From NCBI GenBank assembly GCA_025617375.2, contig JAMYGW020000009.1, positions 496,001 through 560,000 of the forward strand: a stretch of 64,000 nt of DNA, in the 5' to 3' direction. This DNA is from Acarospora socialis (Eukaryota; Ascomycota; Lecanoromycetes; Acarosporales; Acarosporaceae). Numbering within the stretch: the first letter of the stretch is position 1; every line of letters begins with the position of its first letter. Shown one piece after another: positions 31,307 to 40,662 of this stretch. Under the pieces are notes generated by a model, which saw only the letters and a program-made list of their open reading frames with translations, did not search any database and had not been told where the DNA came from. A program made the position numbers and the translations under genes.

Positions 31307-31308
31307 TA

Positions 31309-31386
31309 CAGTGCGGGAAAAAACTCTGTGCCGTTCACATCGTAGGCAAAAAAACCACCACTTTTTCTAGTAAATCCTGCCACCCC
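31309..31386 (+). repeat. Left terminal inverted repeat
   Basis: Matches the reverse complement of 40480-40557 with about one difference over 78 bp. Sequence similarity fades inward beyond this. Confidence 0.85.
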
Positions 31387-33534
31387 ATATTCACTCACAA
31401 AATCACACACCCACAAGACCAATTGACACCCCCTGAGCCCTATAATGACAGTCTCAATGCTGAAGAGTAAAAAGAAGAATTTTAAGATGAAAACTTCATC
31501 AAAATTGATCCTGAAAGACCTCAGACATTCTTTCTTGTCTCTATTATTCAAGAATGTTGAGAACATTGATGTCAATGAATTTGAGAACATTGACACTGTC
31601 AATTTGACAAAGAAGATTTCATCTAAGATCTCAGTTATGTTTCTCATTCATTGAACTGTTTTTCTGAATAAGATAAATCAGTATTTTAAGATTAAGATGA
31701 TTGATTTCATCAATTTTGACTATTCAATGTTTCTGACAAATAAACAGATCAGATTGAAGAAAAAAACTCAATCAAAGAAATATCAAGTGCAACAACAGCA
31801 GATTAGAACAGAACTATTGTTCAGTGAGATTAAAAAACAGAATATCATGATCTTGAATCTGAAGAATGTTGAGAAATGAATTAATTTAAAGACTATACTT
31901 CTGATCTGACACAAAAACAAGAAAAAGAGTATTCAGATGTCTATAGACATCAAATTTGCACAGAGAACAGTCTCAAAATCTGTTTAAGACTTCTTCACAG
32001 ACAACAATAAGTCAGAGTTTTTGAAAGAAGAAGAAGTTCTCTTTTGAAAGAAGAAGATAAGTTAATTGCTTTTTGTAGAACTTTTATATTAATTTTACTT
32101 AAAAAACAGCTACAGACAAGCATCAGACAGTCATGAAGAAATGAGAAAAGCTAAAATTGAAACTGAACAATCATGTGAAACAGCTAATGCATTAATGACA
32201 TTGTGAAAATGCAGAGTGCAAGAATAAGAATGAAAAATGCTTAATATTAAAAGAAAAGCATCATGTTCTGAATTCTAATCATTTCACTGTCTGAAATAGA
32301 ATCATTAACAATGATGATGTCATCATTGAAAGTTCTTCTCTTTGAGTGCTTCATATACTTGATTGACTTTCTTCTTTAATCTTTAAGTCTGCTTCACAGT
32401 CTGCTTCATTCTTCACATCATTCTTATTTTTTGCATCTGTTCATGTTCACATGAAGCAGACATTATTAATGTTGTTAATATCATCAATGTTGTCAATGTT
32501 CATGCAGAGTTTCTGACAGTACTCATTGTCATACATGTCTTCTTCACTCTATCTGTCTTCATCATCATATCTGCAACTTTATCAGCATTCATATGCTACT
32601 CTATCTTCTTCATCTTCTTCACAATATTTTTTGCATTATTCAATGCATTCTTCTTGTTCATTCTTGTCTTAACTATCTCTGAATTCTTCTCTGAAGTCTG
32701 CTTCACAGTCTTTGCATTACTTGTCTTCACAATGATCTGTTTCACATGAAAAGAAAAGCAGCTCTGTCAGCAGTGACAGCATAGAGCTCATAAAGCTTCT
32801 ATATCAGTATATAGAGTGATTTAAGAAGTGAGTATCAGAGTACTCAATGTTGCTGAAAAATGCATACAAATAGCTGCAAAATCAGCTGTATAATGTGAAA
32901 CAGATAAGAAAAACAGAGATTTAAGACTGAAAAGACTTGAACATTTCTCTAGATCTAGAAAAACAGTTAAAGAAAAAAGTTAAAGAGTGAAATAAAGAGA
33001 GAAGAATTATGAGAAATATGAGAATTATAAGAAAAAAAAGTGATACTATTAACTCATTAATGCAGTTAACAACAGTTGCAGAGTTTCTGAAGTCTTAAAT
33101 AGTATTAAATTTATATATTTCTATCTTTTAAATCTATTTACAACTCATAGTCATAGTTGTAATCATTGTCAATGACTGTTAATTTCATTTCTATATATAC
33201 ACTTCAAAAATGTGTTTCTGAATGTTTGTTCTTGTTATATTTCTTCACTGTCAATTGTATAAATTCTTCAAAGTCATTTTTATACTTCTTCACAAGATCT
33301 TCATGTTGCTGCATTCACTGCTTGAGAATGACAAAAAACTGTTCAATGAAATTGTAGTCAGAAAAGTAGAAAGAAAGAAAAACAAGCTCTACATCAGTCT
33401 CAGTACATATGTTGACTAATTTTTAATAATCTGTTAATTAATAAACACAGAGAAATCAGAAGACATATTTTGAAACAATGAATAGATGCATTATTCATGA
33501 TAAAAACAGATTTTGATCTCAAAAAAGAACTACA

Positions 33535-33888
33535 TGTAATGTTCTGACCTGAGCTTTCTCAAGTATGTAGAGTTAAGAGTTTGTGCTTATTGATATAACA
33601 GTTGATCTGAAATGATTCTGATCTTTAACTCTTAGATGATTATTTAAGTTGAACATGATCATTTTCATAAGAAAAACAATTCTACTATATAGAACATGCT
33701 TGACATCTCTGCATTGAGCATTCTTGATGTTTTGATGTTTCAATGTTGAGAAGTTGAGCTCTCAGCTTGTCTGCTCACTGTTGAGCTGTTGTGCTGTCAC
33801 ATGACTGCTGTTTAAATATTCTTTGAATATATACTTTCTGCATGTATGCATCAGTTTGTTTTAAGTTTGTTCTGACTTGATCATAACA
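33535..33888 (-). repeat. LTR of the gypsy fossil (3' LTR in element orientation)
   Basis: Starts TGTAAT and ends ATAACA; aligns over its full 354 bp with 39341-39694. Confidence 0.9.
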
Positions 33889-36800
33889 CTATTTTTTTCT
33901 TCTCAGGTGCTAGTTCTCTAGAGTTTATATAAGTGAGAATATTTACATCATTCACTGTCAGTGATGATACTTTCTAAAAATTCAAATTGTCTAAGAATCA
34001 CAAAGAAAATTCAACTCAGTGATAGTCTCATCACATTTCTCTGTGAATTCTGTACTGCCTGTGATCTTGATTGCTTTGTCATGATTGATGAAAGATTAAA
34101 ATGTGATAAGTGTACTTGTCACAGTTGTTCATGCATTGCAGTTTTGTGAAAGTCTCTCAACAGAACTTGTCTTTTTCTCTAAAAGAAAATAAGTGATGTG
34201 AATGTGATTCTTAATGTTCTTGCTGTCAAGATGATGCATTTTCAAAAGACTTTGAATCAGACAGATTGTCATGCTACACAAAAAATTGACTGTCTTGCTG
34301 CTGAACTTGATAGTGATAATGATGAAACTGAGAATGAAGATTCTCAAACAATGTTGTAACTTGTCAATTTAATGTTGTCATTCTTCTGAATTAATATCAA
34401 TTTCTTTTCTTAAAACATTGAAGTGTTTTTGCACAGTTCTTGAGATTTTCTCTTGATTTTCAGATATTTTCTGAGATATCATATTCTTTTCATTTTATGA
34501 GATAGTGAGCTTTTTCACTAATCATTCTCTTCTTTAAAATGTTCTCAACTTCATATTCTTCTTTGAGTTCAACAAATGTTTCTGTAATTTGAAGTGATAT
34601 GAACTGATTGCAATGCTGTAACATGAATGCATGAAATACTGAGTGTATTCTCATTTTCTTGAATAAGTCTAGCTCATAGCTTAACTCTTTAATGTTTCAT
34701 ATGATCTTGAATGATTCAATGCTCTTATTTTCTAGCTTCTTGCTTCTTTTCTTAGTTCATATGTTGTCTGTTCTTAGATATACTCTTTTTTCTTTTTCAA
34801 ATGATTTTGTCTCTGTTGTTTGTTCTATCTGCTGTTCAATTCATTTCATTAGATCTTGATGCAGTCTCTTTATTTGAGTAATATTCAGAATTACTTTCTG
34901 ATTTTGTGATTCATGTTCTTTGAAATCTCATCATATCTCTGAGTTATAGTCATAGTTCATGTAGAAAGATGTCTCTTCTGTGATTTCACTTTTTGTGTTG
35001 TTGTATGCAAACTGTGTCATTGACAATAGTCATACTCAGTTGTTCTGATTCTTGTTGACATAGTGTTTTAAGTATGTTTTCACTGTTTAATTCATTCATT
35101 TGCTTTGTTCATCTGTCTGTGAATGATATGCTGTTAATATCTTGTGTCTTATTTCAAGTTCTGCTGTGAGTATTTCTCAAAATCTGCTTGTAAACAGCTT
35201 GTCTCTGTCAGTGATAAACTCTTTTAATAGTTCATGATTGCTAATCAATTTCTGTAGTATCATATATGTCAATATTGATGCTGTTGTGATTTCTTTGAAT
35301 GAAATGAACATTGTGTACTTGATTAATCTATTCACTATGATCAATATACTATTGAATCTCACTCTTCATGCTGAGTCTTTAGATGATGATAACTTCATAA
35401 TAAAGTTCATGATAATTGACTTTCACAGTGTGTCTGATGTGTTGAGTCATGTTACTTCATTATATTGTTTATCTTAATTAATCTTATTTCTTTAACATAA
35501 GTCACACACAGCAATCATTCTGATGATTCAATTTCTAAAATTGTTAATGTTGCATCTTCTTCACACTAGATTCTCAGTGTGTTTAACTTCTAGATGTTCT
35601 TCAGTCTTGTCATAATGACACATCTCAATGAGTTCTTTATTTGTCAAGAAAGCTTGCTTTACCTTGTACATTGCTGCTAAGTCTTTCATGAGAATTTTCT
35701 TATTGTCTTTGCTGAGAATTTCAATATATACTGTTTGTACATCTTCATGATCAGATCATCTACTCAAGACATCTGCTTTGTTATTCTCATTATTTTTCTT
35801 GTAATGAATTTGAAATTCATAATCTGCTAACTGCTTCACTCAACAAATCTGTCATTGATTAAGTTGCTTTGTCATTGCAAAGTTTCTCAAGTTCTTGTGA
35901 TCTGTGTAGATCTGAATTGACTTGTTCATTTCTGCAAAATAAGATCTTCAATCTTGCAGTGCTTTCACTATCACAAGAAGTTTCTTGTCATAAATCTCAT
36001 ATCTTTTCTTGAGTTCTGATAGCTTTCTAAATTGATACACTATGAGTTTCTGTTGCTCATTCTCAATCTGATATAAACATGCTTTTATTGTGAAATCTGA
36101 AGCATCAGTTTTCAGTGTCTTTTTACATGCTGAATTGAATATTCTCAGATGTGTTGTTTCACTAAGACTTTTCTTTAATATGTGAAATGCATTCTTCTGT
36201 TCTTGATCTCAGTGTTATTTTTTGTTTTTGTGTGTCAAATGCATCAACAGTTCTGCAATTCTTGCATAGTTCAGTACAAACTTTCAATAATAGTTCATTA
36301 ATTCTAGAAAGATCTGTACTTTCTTGATTTGTTTTGAGGTTGATCAGTTTCTGACTGCTTTTATCTTTTTTGAATTCTTCTCAATTTGTTCAGATTGAAT
36401 CACATAGTCTAGAAACTTGACTTTCTTAGTCTCAAATCTGCTTTTTGACTTTTTCATGTACAAAACTCTCTCATTAAGCTTTGCTAATATCTTGCACATG
36501 TGTCTGCAGTACTTCTCAAGATCTTCTGAGTATATCAGAATGTCATTAAGATATGTGATCACAAAATCATTGAGATATTCTCTCAACATATCATTGATCA
36601 ATCTCTGAAAGATAACTGATGCATTTTTCAGTTTAAATAACATGACAATGTACTCATAGTGTCTGTATCTTGTTCAGAATGCTGTTTTTCATTTTTTATC
36701 TTCTTTCATTTTAACTCAGTAGTAGATGTTCTTAAGATCTAAGCTCATAAATCACTTAGTCTTACTTAACTGATCTTGCAACTCTTCTATTAATGATAGA

Positions 36801-39340
36801 AAATAACTATCTTGATGAGTTATTTTGTTGAGTTGTCTGTAATCAACACATAATTGTTTCTTGTCATTCTTCTTTGATACAAACAGAATTGAATATTCTG
36901 TCAATGATTTTAATGATTTTATGAATTCTCTCTTAAGATTCTCATCAAGATAAGTTCTAACTTTCTTGAGTTGATTCTTGCTCATTGAGTATAATGACAT
37001 TTATCTAGATTGCTTTTCATTCAATAGCAGTATTTTGTGATCTCATGACTTATACTTTGATAAGCTCATTTCTGATTGTTTGAGAATCTTGTATGTGTCT
37101 TCAATTGCATATATTTCTTTCATAATTCAATCAATCTTTAAATTTCTTTCACACAATCAGAACATCCCTAGCACTGTATCATATTCAATTGATTTCATAA
37201 CATTAAACATTATCTCTTGTGAATTTTCAAGAATCAAGACTTTCACACAGATTTTCTCATTGATTCTTTCAATGACTTCATTTGTCATTTGTATGTTAAA
37301 TGAACAGCACACTCATCATGTCTCTAATTTTAACATATTGACTGTTTTTTGATTCATAATGTTACTGTCTGCTTTGAAATTCATTAATGTGTTGATATGA
37401 TGTCTGTTGATTGTAATCTTGATTTATATTCAATGATCATTGTCTTGTCTTTGAGACATCACTAGCTTCTTATTCTTTAGTCTTGTTGAGAAAGCTTTTC
37501 ATTTTTTGACTCACTTGATTGTTCAGCTCATCTTCAAAGCTCTTAAAATTATCTGAGTTTTCTTCTGATCATGAGATTTACATATTTTAGATTGTGCTGC
37601 TCAATGCATCTTTCTGAGTGTAGTCAGAGTTCATACTGATTGTACTTCATCTGCAACTGACTCTCACAGACTTTTACTCTTTGCAGAAATTCAAATGATA
37701 TGTATTCTTTACTGAAGATTCATCTGTTTTCATTCTGCATGATATACTCTTCAGATAAGTATATCTTGACTTTGTAACTCTTTGTTTTTCACACAAGAGA
37801 TTCTGACATTGATTTTCTTGTAACTGTTTATACATCTCTCATTAAATTGTCAAATCTTTCACATGTCTCTGCTTTCTGATCTTGAGTTCTTTGTTTTTTC
37901 TTCAGTATCTTCTTGCTAATTGATGCTGCTTTTCTTTGAGCACTTAGATCTTTTTCAATCTTCATTCAGTATTTCTTTGAGAGTTCTGCCTCAACATTGT
38001 TCAAATTTTCTCTTGTGAGTGCATTGCTGTCAGAAAATATTCATGATTTGTCAATCTGAGATTCATGATCATCAGTCTCTTCAATGTTATCTTTAAGAAC
38101 ATTGTCTTCTTTCTCAGCATCAAGAACTCTTTTCTTGATAAGAATAGCTAATTCTTTTTTGTAGATTAATCTATTGCATTTGTCTTTGTCTTTTCTTCTA
38201 AACTTCTGTGAATATCATCTGACTCTGTTTTTTGTACTTATGTGTACTCTGCACATGTCATTGTAGCAGACTGTTTAGCTGAGAGCATCATGCACTATGC
38301 ATGTATTCTTCTTGACTGTCACTGCAACATTCTTTCTTTTTATTCAAGATCTGTTACACTTTCAAACAAGATGTTCAGATTTTCTGCAGTTGTAATATAT
38401 TCATATTTTGTTTTGCAGTGTCATCTGAGACTTAGTGAACTGCTCTGACTGACATTCATGCTCTGTTCATTTAGTTTTTCATGATTTCTGACAGCACTTC
38501 TTAATCACATTGAGATTCATAGAGTCTGTCTCTCTATGTCTTATTGATAAAACATATCACTTCATTCACAGTCAGAAGCTTTCTTCTTGATCTTCTATCA
38601 TAAGTGACATTCAATATTCTTTTTGTTTCATCTGTCATTTTCATTGACAACTGTCAATATTAATACTCAGATCAATCATTTTCTGAAGATTGTCTGATCA
38701 TTTTGTTTGAGCTATCTTGTCTTTGATGAACTTTCTCAACTTACAATAGTACTGATAGATAAGTGCTTCATTGTTTCATCTGATAAGTGCTGCTAACTGC
38801 TGAAACTCTGTGATGTATACTGCTGTCAATTCATTCTGTTGCAAGATATAAACTTGTCTTTTTACTGTTCTCTCTTTGTCAATTACTCTGAAGATCTTTC
38901 TTAATTCTTTTTTAAACTGTGTGTAGTCATTGAACATAGACTTCATGTCTGCATTGCACTTCTCATACTCTTTTTCTAGAAACTCATGCAGCTTGAGATC
39001 AACTCAATTGAAGACTGCATTCACAAGATAGATCATTGCAAACAATATTTTCTCTTGATTGATCTGAAACTTCAGTTGATTGAATTCAATATATAGATTG
39101 AGTTTTGTCACAAAGACTCACAGTTTTTCTCATTCTTCATCAAAAATATCTGATATCTGTATCTTAGGTGCACTCAGAAATAGTTGTATTGCTTGAGCTG
39201 ACATCATCACTGATTGTGCTGTCATTCTTCTCAGAGTAAATGATAAAGATAAATTTGTCTGAACTTGTCTCAAGAACAAGATTGAGATGTTTTTCTGTGT
39301 GTCAGACATCATACTTGTTATATTGTAAGAGTGTTCAAAG

Positions 39341-39694
39341 TGTAATATTCTGACCTGAGCTTTCTCAGGTATGTAGAACTAAGAATTTGTGCTTATTGAT
39401 ATAATGACTGGTCTGAAATGATTCTGATCTTTAACTCTTAGATGATTATTTAAGTTGAACATGATTGTTTTCATAAGAAAAACAACTCTACTATATAGAA
39501 TGTGCTTGATGTCTCTGCATTGAGCACTCTTGGTGTCTTGATGTCTTGATGTTGAGAAATTGAGTTCTCAGCTTGTCTGCTCACTGTTGAGCTGTTGTGT
39601 TGTCATGTGACTGCTGTTTAAACATCTTCTGAATATATACTTCTTACATATATGCATCAGTTTGCTCTAAGCTTGTTCTGACTTAATCATAACA
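39341..39694 (-). repeat. LTR of the gypsy fossil (5' LTR in element orientation)
   Basis: Same length and ends as 33535-33888. The differences are essentially all transitions, as expected from cytosine deamination on either strand. Confidence 0.9.
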
Positions 39695-40479
39695 CTGCAC
39701 TGCAACAGAATCTCATTTTGTATGAAGAAGTTAAACAAGACTTCTGTTATAGAGCTCTGTCTAACTGTTCATGTTATGTATTTTTTGACAGTGTATGTTG
39801 ACAGTACACTTCACTGTTTGCTCTGTTTCAATGAGATTGATGTTGAGATTCTCATTTCTTAATGAATTCAGTCAAACTTTCAATTCTTATTCTGTTTGTT
39901 TGCAGCTGACTCATCAATAAAGACAAGCTGATCTGCAGTTCAATTGACTAATTATACAAGTCATTCTGCATGTAGTTCATGATCTTGTTGAGCAACTTTC
40001 TGTTGTAGCTATTAAAATCACAAGTATTAGTTATTGAATCATCAAACAAAGATTCTTATCATCTTTCATGTATGCTTCATTCTCTTCAGAACATTAGACA
40101 ATGTTCTGAGATTGACATTGATTTCAAATTTGTTTCAAAGAAATCATCTCATCTCATCACAGTATGTTCAGAGTCTTTTCTCAAGATACTCAGCAAGAAT
40201 TTCTTTCATTGCTGAGATCAGAACTTTAGAATGATCATTTTTTTTAAGTCTGAGAGTCTTAGAAGACTCTCATACTCACTGATTGCTTCACATCTTCTGA
40301 ATTTGTTGAATAGACATCTCTGTGTTCTCATGAATTGATGGGATTGACATCTCACAGAACAATTGGCTGTTGATGAGATTTCTAGTATACTCAGACAATG
40401 GGTGAGATATTGCTGATGTATGGGGTGCAGTTGTGGAGGTTGTGGGCTTTGTTTTGTGGTGGTAGAATGGGTGGATATG

Positions 40480-40557
40480 GGGGTGGCAGGATTTACTAGA
40501 AAAAGTGGTGGTTTTTTTGCCTATGATGTGAACGGCACAGAGTTTTTTCCCGCACTG
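40480..40557 (-). repeat. Right terminal inverted repeat
   Basis: Inverted copy of 31309-31386, ending CCCGCACTG before TA. Confidence 0.85.
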
Positions 40558-40662
40558 TACTTACACCTATCGACGAATCCACGACATTGCCCGTTTCGTG
40601 ACCTCAATTCCTTGTCTACTCGCAAGAAGACATGGTAGTGGGCCACTGCTGATGTCTGTCCA

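Follow-up and report, generated by a model that had tools for sequence, protein, structure and literature searches.

What process could have removed every CpG dinucleotide from 9,190 bp of a fungal chromosome? The block (positions 31343-40532, GC 0.31) lies in the window, the 64-kb stretch of Acarospora socialis DNA analysed here (C9:496001-560000 of a 31.15-Mb assembly in 38 contigs). An earlier note made from the letters alone had pointed to the absence, and it is real: the numbers of C and G in the block itself predict 224 CpGs, the CGs that bound it start at 31341 and 40533, and the second-longest stretch without CpG in the window is 172 bp. In 1-kb bins clear of the block, the observed/expected ratio (o/e) of CpG was 0.68-1.25. 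GpC, CpA and TpG remained common, as the earlier note had also said (o/e 0.98, 1.57 and 1.58, respectively), and TpA was low (0.54). Half of the signal had been overlooked, since CpC and GpG were nearly gone too, with o/e of 0.11 and 0.15 across the whole block. The core (31451-40300, 8,850 bp) retained nine CC and six GG (o/e 0.04 and 0.03), with TC (1.48), GA (1.52), CA (1.57) and TG (1.59) in excess and TA low (0.54), so that hardly any C in the block has C or G as its 3' neighbour. Residual CC lay mostly toward the left end of the block and residual GG mostly toward the right end.

Ordinary RIP directed at CpA is scarcely credible as the cause. Both RID-type and DIM-2-type genes are present in the genome, as this reading would have it, but the dinucleotide counts contradict it, since the CpA preference and TpA gain that characterise RIP are replaced by abundant CpA and scarce TpA. 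The indices of the block were 0.58 for TpA/ApT, 1.70 for (CpA+TpG)/(ApC+GpT) and -1.11 for the composite; all three place it farther from RIPped DNA than its normal flanks, and by the cut-offs quoted in PMC7882544 the composite would count as unmutated. The suggestion that the target context is not that of Neurospora therefore holds, and the CpA depletion with high TpA/ApT that had been named as evidence against it is not what was found. An index built on C before G or C (CpS), (CC+GG+2CG)/(TC+GA+TG+CA), gave 0.019 for the block and 0.86-0.91 for the flanks.

The block is one transposon within another, both of them mutated (Table 1). An element of about 3.09 kb with terminal inverted repeats (TIRs; 80 bp, 99% matched) carries an LTR retroelement, which from its layout is probably gypsy-type. 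The body of the TIR element has matches at eight other loci in the genome, and uninterrupted copies of 3,086 and 3,066 bp occur elsewhere. The two LTRs of the nested element differ by 40 transitions, with neither a transversion nor an indel between them. A search of the genome for DDE_1, made to find the transposase class of the TIR element, gave 17 places, none of them at TIR elements. Two of the DDE_1 domains, at C5:1087735-1088241 and C8:465028-465543, are free of stops, the open frames around them being 577 and 471 aa long, and are perhaps unmutated single copies or domesticated genes; most of the other matches carried stops.

Table 1. Features of the CpG-free block and its nested elements (positions in the window)
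Feature	Position	Strand	Remarks
TIR element with TA at both extremities, carrying the nested LTR element	31307..40559		3,093 bp without the insert
Left terminal inverted repeat	31307..31386	+	CC kept; GG absent just inside
CpG-free tract, core also nearly without CpC and GpG	31343..40532		Dinucleotide counts
Target-site duplication CTACA	33530..33534		One G/A difference from partner CTGCA
Nested LTR retroelement, stop-disabled	33535..39694	-	Probably gypsy-type, from layout
LTR, 354 bp	33535..33888	-	Against partner LTR, 40 transitions and nothing else
Reverse-transcriptase (RVT_1) domain, 4 TGA stops	36404..36874	-	C9:532404-532874
LTR, 354 bp	39341..39694	-	Partner of 33535..33888
Target-site duplication CTGCA	39695..39699		Partner CTACA
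Right terminal inverted repeat	40480..40559	-	GG kept (+ strand reading); CC absent just inside

The same state was found in other copies of the LTR element. A search of the genome with the whole block gave 22 matches, from 12 candidates scored among 433 first-look candidates. Eleven LTR-element matches (L014-L024, L024 being partial) contained 59 CC and 50 GG in 64,751 bases and no CpG at all; CpG in such copies would have spoken against the reading of the earlier note. When the window copy was aligned with L014-L023 (11 sequences), identity was 82.7% and transitions made up 92% of the differences. CA faced TG in 15,180 of 107,320 comparisons, which is the trace of a single CpG resolved both ways. 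The first C of CC read T in the partner copy in 797 of 1064 comparisons, and for CpA and CpT cytosines outside CC the corresponding fraction was 0.23-0.29. The second C of CC resembled these other CpA and CpT cytosines (CCA 89/479, CCT 134/552), indicating that the 3' neighbour determines the target; any of the four bases can precede a mutated CC. CpA and CpT were also altered in these saturated copies, CA to TA in 0.12 of CA comparisons and CT to TT in 0.19.

Could the pattern have arisen in the sequencing, as an assembly or base-calling error at methylated cytosines? The assembly does resemble long-read sequence, and two rDNA copies in it are 98.7% alike with 25 gap positions. This origin is nevertheless very improbable, since the same CpG is read as CA in one copy and as TG in another, CpG counts are normal immediately outside the block, and the bias is present at synonymous sites of intact LINE frames (see below). 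The rDNA copies, L038 (C18:106431-106584) and L039 (C28:20530-20680), differ mainly by gaps, which points to unpolished long reads; the pair was considered as an unmutated and mutated control and rejected because the second 5.8S copy (L039) differs mainly in this way.

Target rates could be read directly in a LINE family with RVT_1 and RNase H domains, whose copies are 96-99.8% alike. Six lightly mutated copies were compared, in 900-bp pieces, with the 884 columns at which four intact copies agree, and totals were summed by hand from the per-copy lines. The sites mutated were 55/227 for CpC, 7/654 for CpT and 2/907 for CpA, the last again at odds with CpA-type RIP; CpG gave 4/24, too few sites for a firm rate. 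By coding strand, the CpC mutations were 46/161 for G-to-A and 9/66 for C-to-T.

An intact frame of the family (L059, 957 codons) showed the CpS bias at synonymous third positions. There, C/(C+T) was 0.50 before A, 0.35 before T, 0.10 before C and 0.02 before G, and G/(G+A) was 0.25 after A, 0.44 after T, 0/120 after C and 0.08 after G. One host frame of the window served for comparison and lacked the bias, the values being 0.70, 0.61, 0.48 and 0.48 for C/(C+T) before A, T, C and G, and 0.50, 0.58, 0.42 and 0.45 for G/(G+A) after A, T, C and G. On the simplest reading, the LINE lineage would have lived under CpS mutation while selection preserved its protein. L059, to which L060-L067 and L069 are related, is a living element nearly without CpG (o/e 0.06 in the intact frame, with GpG at 1.04), and CC and GG are retained where a change would alter the protein.

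We examined how the mutated tract ends at 17 TIR-element termini, read inward, from the window and the eight other elements. Fifteen of the 17 had a CpG-free tract that started 7-41 bp in from the end of the element, and the flanks carried ordinary CpG at 16. At one terminus (L051) no CpG occurred until 36 bp outside the element, and another (L043, 3721) adjoins mutated DNA. Thus, in the copies examined, CpG and CpC have undergone C-to-T and G-to-A change almost to saturation, and this change is confined to the repeats and ends inside the element termini.

These termini also displayed a strand polarity. Of former CpGs within 50 bp of an end, 37 had become CA (bottom strand mutated) and five TG; at 51-200 bp the numbers were 62 and 29, and beyond 200 bp the strands were even (264 and 270). 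Columns at 7-9 bp align poorly, but 21-50 bp taken on its own gave 35:4; at site 26 a divergent subfamily may, judged by eye, simply have inherited CA, and sites 35 and 41 alone gave 23:3. Counted by terminus, the bottom strand was favoured at 15, the top strand at none and neither at two (sign test 6e-5, which is optimistic since the copies are related). Between 46 and 200 bp inside, the 16 termini with normal flanks each retained 5-23 CC and 0-1 GG, and the terminus adjoining mutated DNA retained neither. This comparison suggests that sparing is governed by how far a site lies from where the mutated tract ends rather than by the TIR sequence, although it is one case and the edge CpGs of that terminus were still 4:0. 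At left-type termini the CpG bias was confined to the outer 50 bp (19:19 at 51-200 bp), and at right-type termini it extended to 200 bp (43:10). When CC was compared with GG at three edges outside the TIR family, L026 agreed with the polarity and L014 and L017 were neutral. The polarity is therefore strong in one TIR family, and its generality is so far limited to that family.

A cytosine deaminase of the APOBEC type, acting on single-stranded DNA at exposed strands or on element cDNA, would fit a polarity in which the strand ending 3' at the boundary is the one more often mutated, and would also fit the excess of G-to-A over C-to-T at CpC on the LINE coding strand. We consider it improbable all the same: the TIR element, a DNA element, is mutated alongside the retroelements, the strands are even in the interior, and within CC it is the first C that is mutated (GG to GA). 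APOBEC3G acts on the second C of CC.

Slow decay is also unlikely, if less easily set aside. On this reading CpG and CpC in heterochromatin would be methylated, by DIM-2 or by some other methyltransferase, and then lost through spontaneous deamination, with no dedicated mutator. A DIM-2 orthologue is present in the genome, and methylation followed by deamination has been put forward as a route from CpG to TpG in fungi (PMC4352252, PMC4014442). Against this, the 40 transitions and no transversions of the LTR pair demand fast change, total CpG loss stops within the element termini, and the ends are polarised by strand. Decay of methylated CpG would be marked by loss of CpG only, and here CpC and GpG are lost as well, CpC almost as fully as CpG.

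The earlier note had proposed a search for methyltransferase genes of the RID and DIM-2 types, and both were found. Matches to PF00145 in the genome amount to three genes (on C2, C3 and C8). The C3 gene has a frame of 1158 codons in which DUF7893 and a full methylase domain were recognised, along with a BAH match below threshold; the closest solved chains to its protein are 9bap and 9baq, the source records of many of its relatives carry the label Dim-2, and from its sequence the protein is predicted to be a DIM-2-type methyltransferase. In the C2 gene the methylase domain is split over two frames that a plausible intron would join, and we take this gene to be RID/Masc1-like from its layout and motifs rather than from a tree. 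The third, at C8:611500-618500 (L037), is cytosine-methylase-like with a layout typical of neither DIM-2 nor RID. A metagenome bin labelled Pleopsidium flavum supplied the nearest named relatives of the DIM-2 (62%) and RID (46%) proteins.

Taken together, we favour, with a probability of roughly 0.7, the reading that a RIP-type defence directed at C before G or C, on either strand, disabled the nested transposons. It is supported by the absence of CpG and near absence of CC and GG from the LTR-element copies, by the dominance of transitions between copies and in the LTR pair, and by the CA/TG mismatches that a CpG resolved either way would leave. The LINE rates that favour CpC, the synonymous-site bias in the LINE frame and not in the host frame, the end of the tract inside termini with normal flanks, the polarity of its ends (37:5 against 264:270 inside) and the presence of RID-type and DIM-2-type genes argue in the same direction. 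What counts against it is the sparing of CpA, the usual RIP target, together with the CpA and CpT changes in saturated copies, the L051 terminus, the CpG rate from 24 LINE sites, and a polarity that comes from one TIR family, with left-type termini at 19:19 at 51-200 bp and two of the three other edges neutral. Of the CpG-directed, RIP-like loss first proposed, the RIP-like C-to-T mutation in repeats stands, and the target has to be widened to include CpC. We accordingly file the phenomenon as RIP-like with a new target: transition-dominated differences, confinement to repeats with spared unique flanks and a RID/Masc1-type gene are all found, and the CpA preference of RIP is not.

Under such a CpS-directed defence, homologous copies would be recognised and a cytosine-methyltransferase-like enzyme, presumably acting in the sexual phase, would convert CpS cytosines, with CpA and CpT hit much more rarely. 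At element ends, the strand that terminates 3' at the boundary is mutated nearly to its end and the other is partly spared over about 50-200 nt, which suggests a mutator that travels directionally along one strand and halts at the end of homology. The RID-type protein is our preferred mutator, since mutation ceases at the edge of the repeat, whereas Neurospora DIM-2 acts on single-copy DNA between flanking repeats (PMC12543289). This choice is weakened by the report that in old Neurospora repeats RIP ceases only when RID and DIM-2 are both lost (PMC11969663); in Zymoseptoria, Dim2 is reported to promote mitotic C-to-T change at CpA (PMC8016269). A fuller proposal can be advanced only tentatively, and we hold it somewhat doubtful: that RIP was re-aimed from CpA to CpS, that its mutator moves 5' to 3' on one strand only as far as homology extends, and so produces the polarity, and that the LINE family that forms one cluster per contig survives by having recoded its synonymous sites to be nearly free of CpS.

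How does this compare with known systems? RIP in Neurospora crassa is likewise C-to-T change in repeats in the presence of RID-type and DIM-2-type genes, and 91.9% of its mutation clusters are reported to affect one strand at a time (PMC7296669), in keeping with the end polarity here. Its order of preference, however, is CpA>CpT>CpG>CpC (PMC5496416), whereas here it is CpG and CpC that have reached saturation, with CpA spared. In Trichoderma reesei, CpG is a main target besides CpA, followed by CpT, but CpC comes last (PMC5496416); here CpC is a main target and CpA is not. Transposons have lost CpG in basidiomycetes with CpG hypermutation, and Tuber has a CpG signature (PMC4352252). In the three CpG-only basidiomycetes of that source, RID and Dim-2 were not found and a Masc2-like gene was, unlike in the present genome with its RID-type and DIM-2-type genes. 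In Microbotryum the context is TpCpG, whereas all four bases precede a mutated CC here. The nearest precedent for CpG plus CpC is Rhizoctonia solani AG8, in which Table 2 of PMC4014442 gives mutation at CpC every 214 bp, CpG 370, CpA 422 and CpT 491, uncorrected for abundance; there, genes are mutated as well as repeats. Repeats of Stagonospora (Parastagonospora) nodorum, whose RIP is CpA-dominant, are likewise depleted in CpC, CpG and GpG (PMC2621366), but CpA and TpG are depleted and TpA raised there, the reverse of what we observed. CpG signatures in fungi are thus known; no description of a repeat-confined CpG-plus-CpC target sparing CpA was found in the literature searched, in which older papers are incompletely covered, and to that extent the target is new.

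Dead transposons without CG, nearly without CC or GG and with CA mostly intact point to a repeat-targeted defence whose target is not the textbook one. A kingdom-wide survey of 2025 describes CpA preference as common to RIP-like defences (PMC12543289), and the genome of Acarospora socialis would be an exception. Scans that use standard RIP indices would overlook RIP of this kind. An altered target alongside both RID-type and DIM-2-type genes makes the determinant of RIP sequence context testable, and the end polarity offers a handle on mutator movement that needs nothing but sequence.

The LINE-type reverse-transcriptase matches (41 among the matches listed, picked by eye) form one cluster on each of 13 contigs (C1-C12 and C14, with a single match on C12). 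The clusters, among them C1:2.65-2.80 Mb, C10:187-265 kb and C14:11-85 kb, span at most 144 kb each and are possibly centromeres. Among the matches listed, at least 23 RVT_1 matches had no internal stop. On C16 (L068), a contig of 182 kb that may be the mitochondrial genome, the RT matches carry TGA, and a sampled piece gave o/e of 0.54 for CpG, 1.39 for CC and 1.70 for GG.
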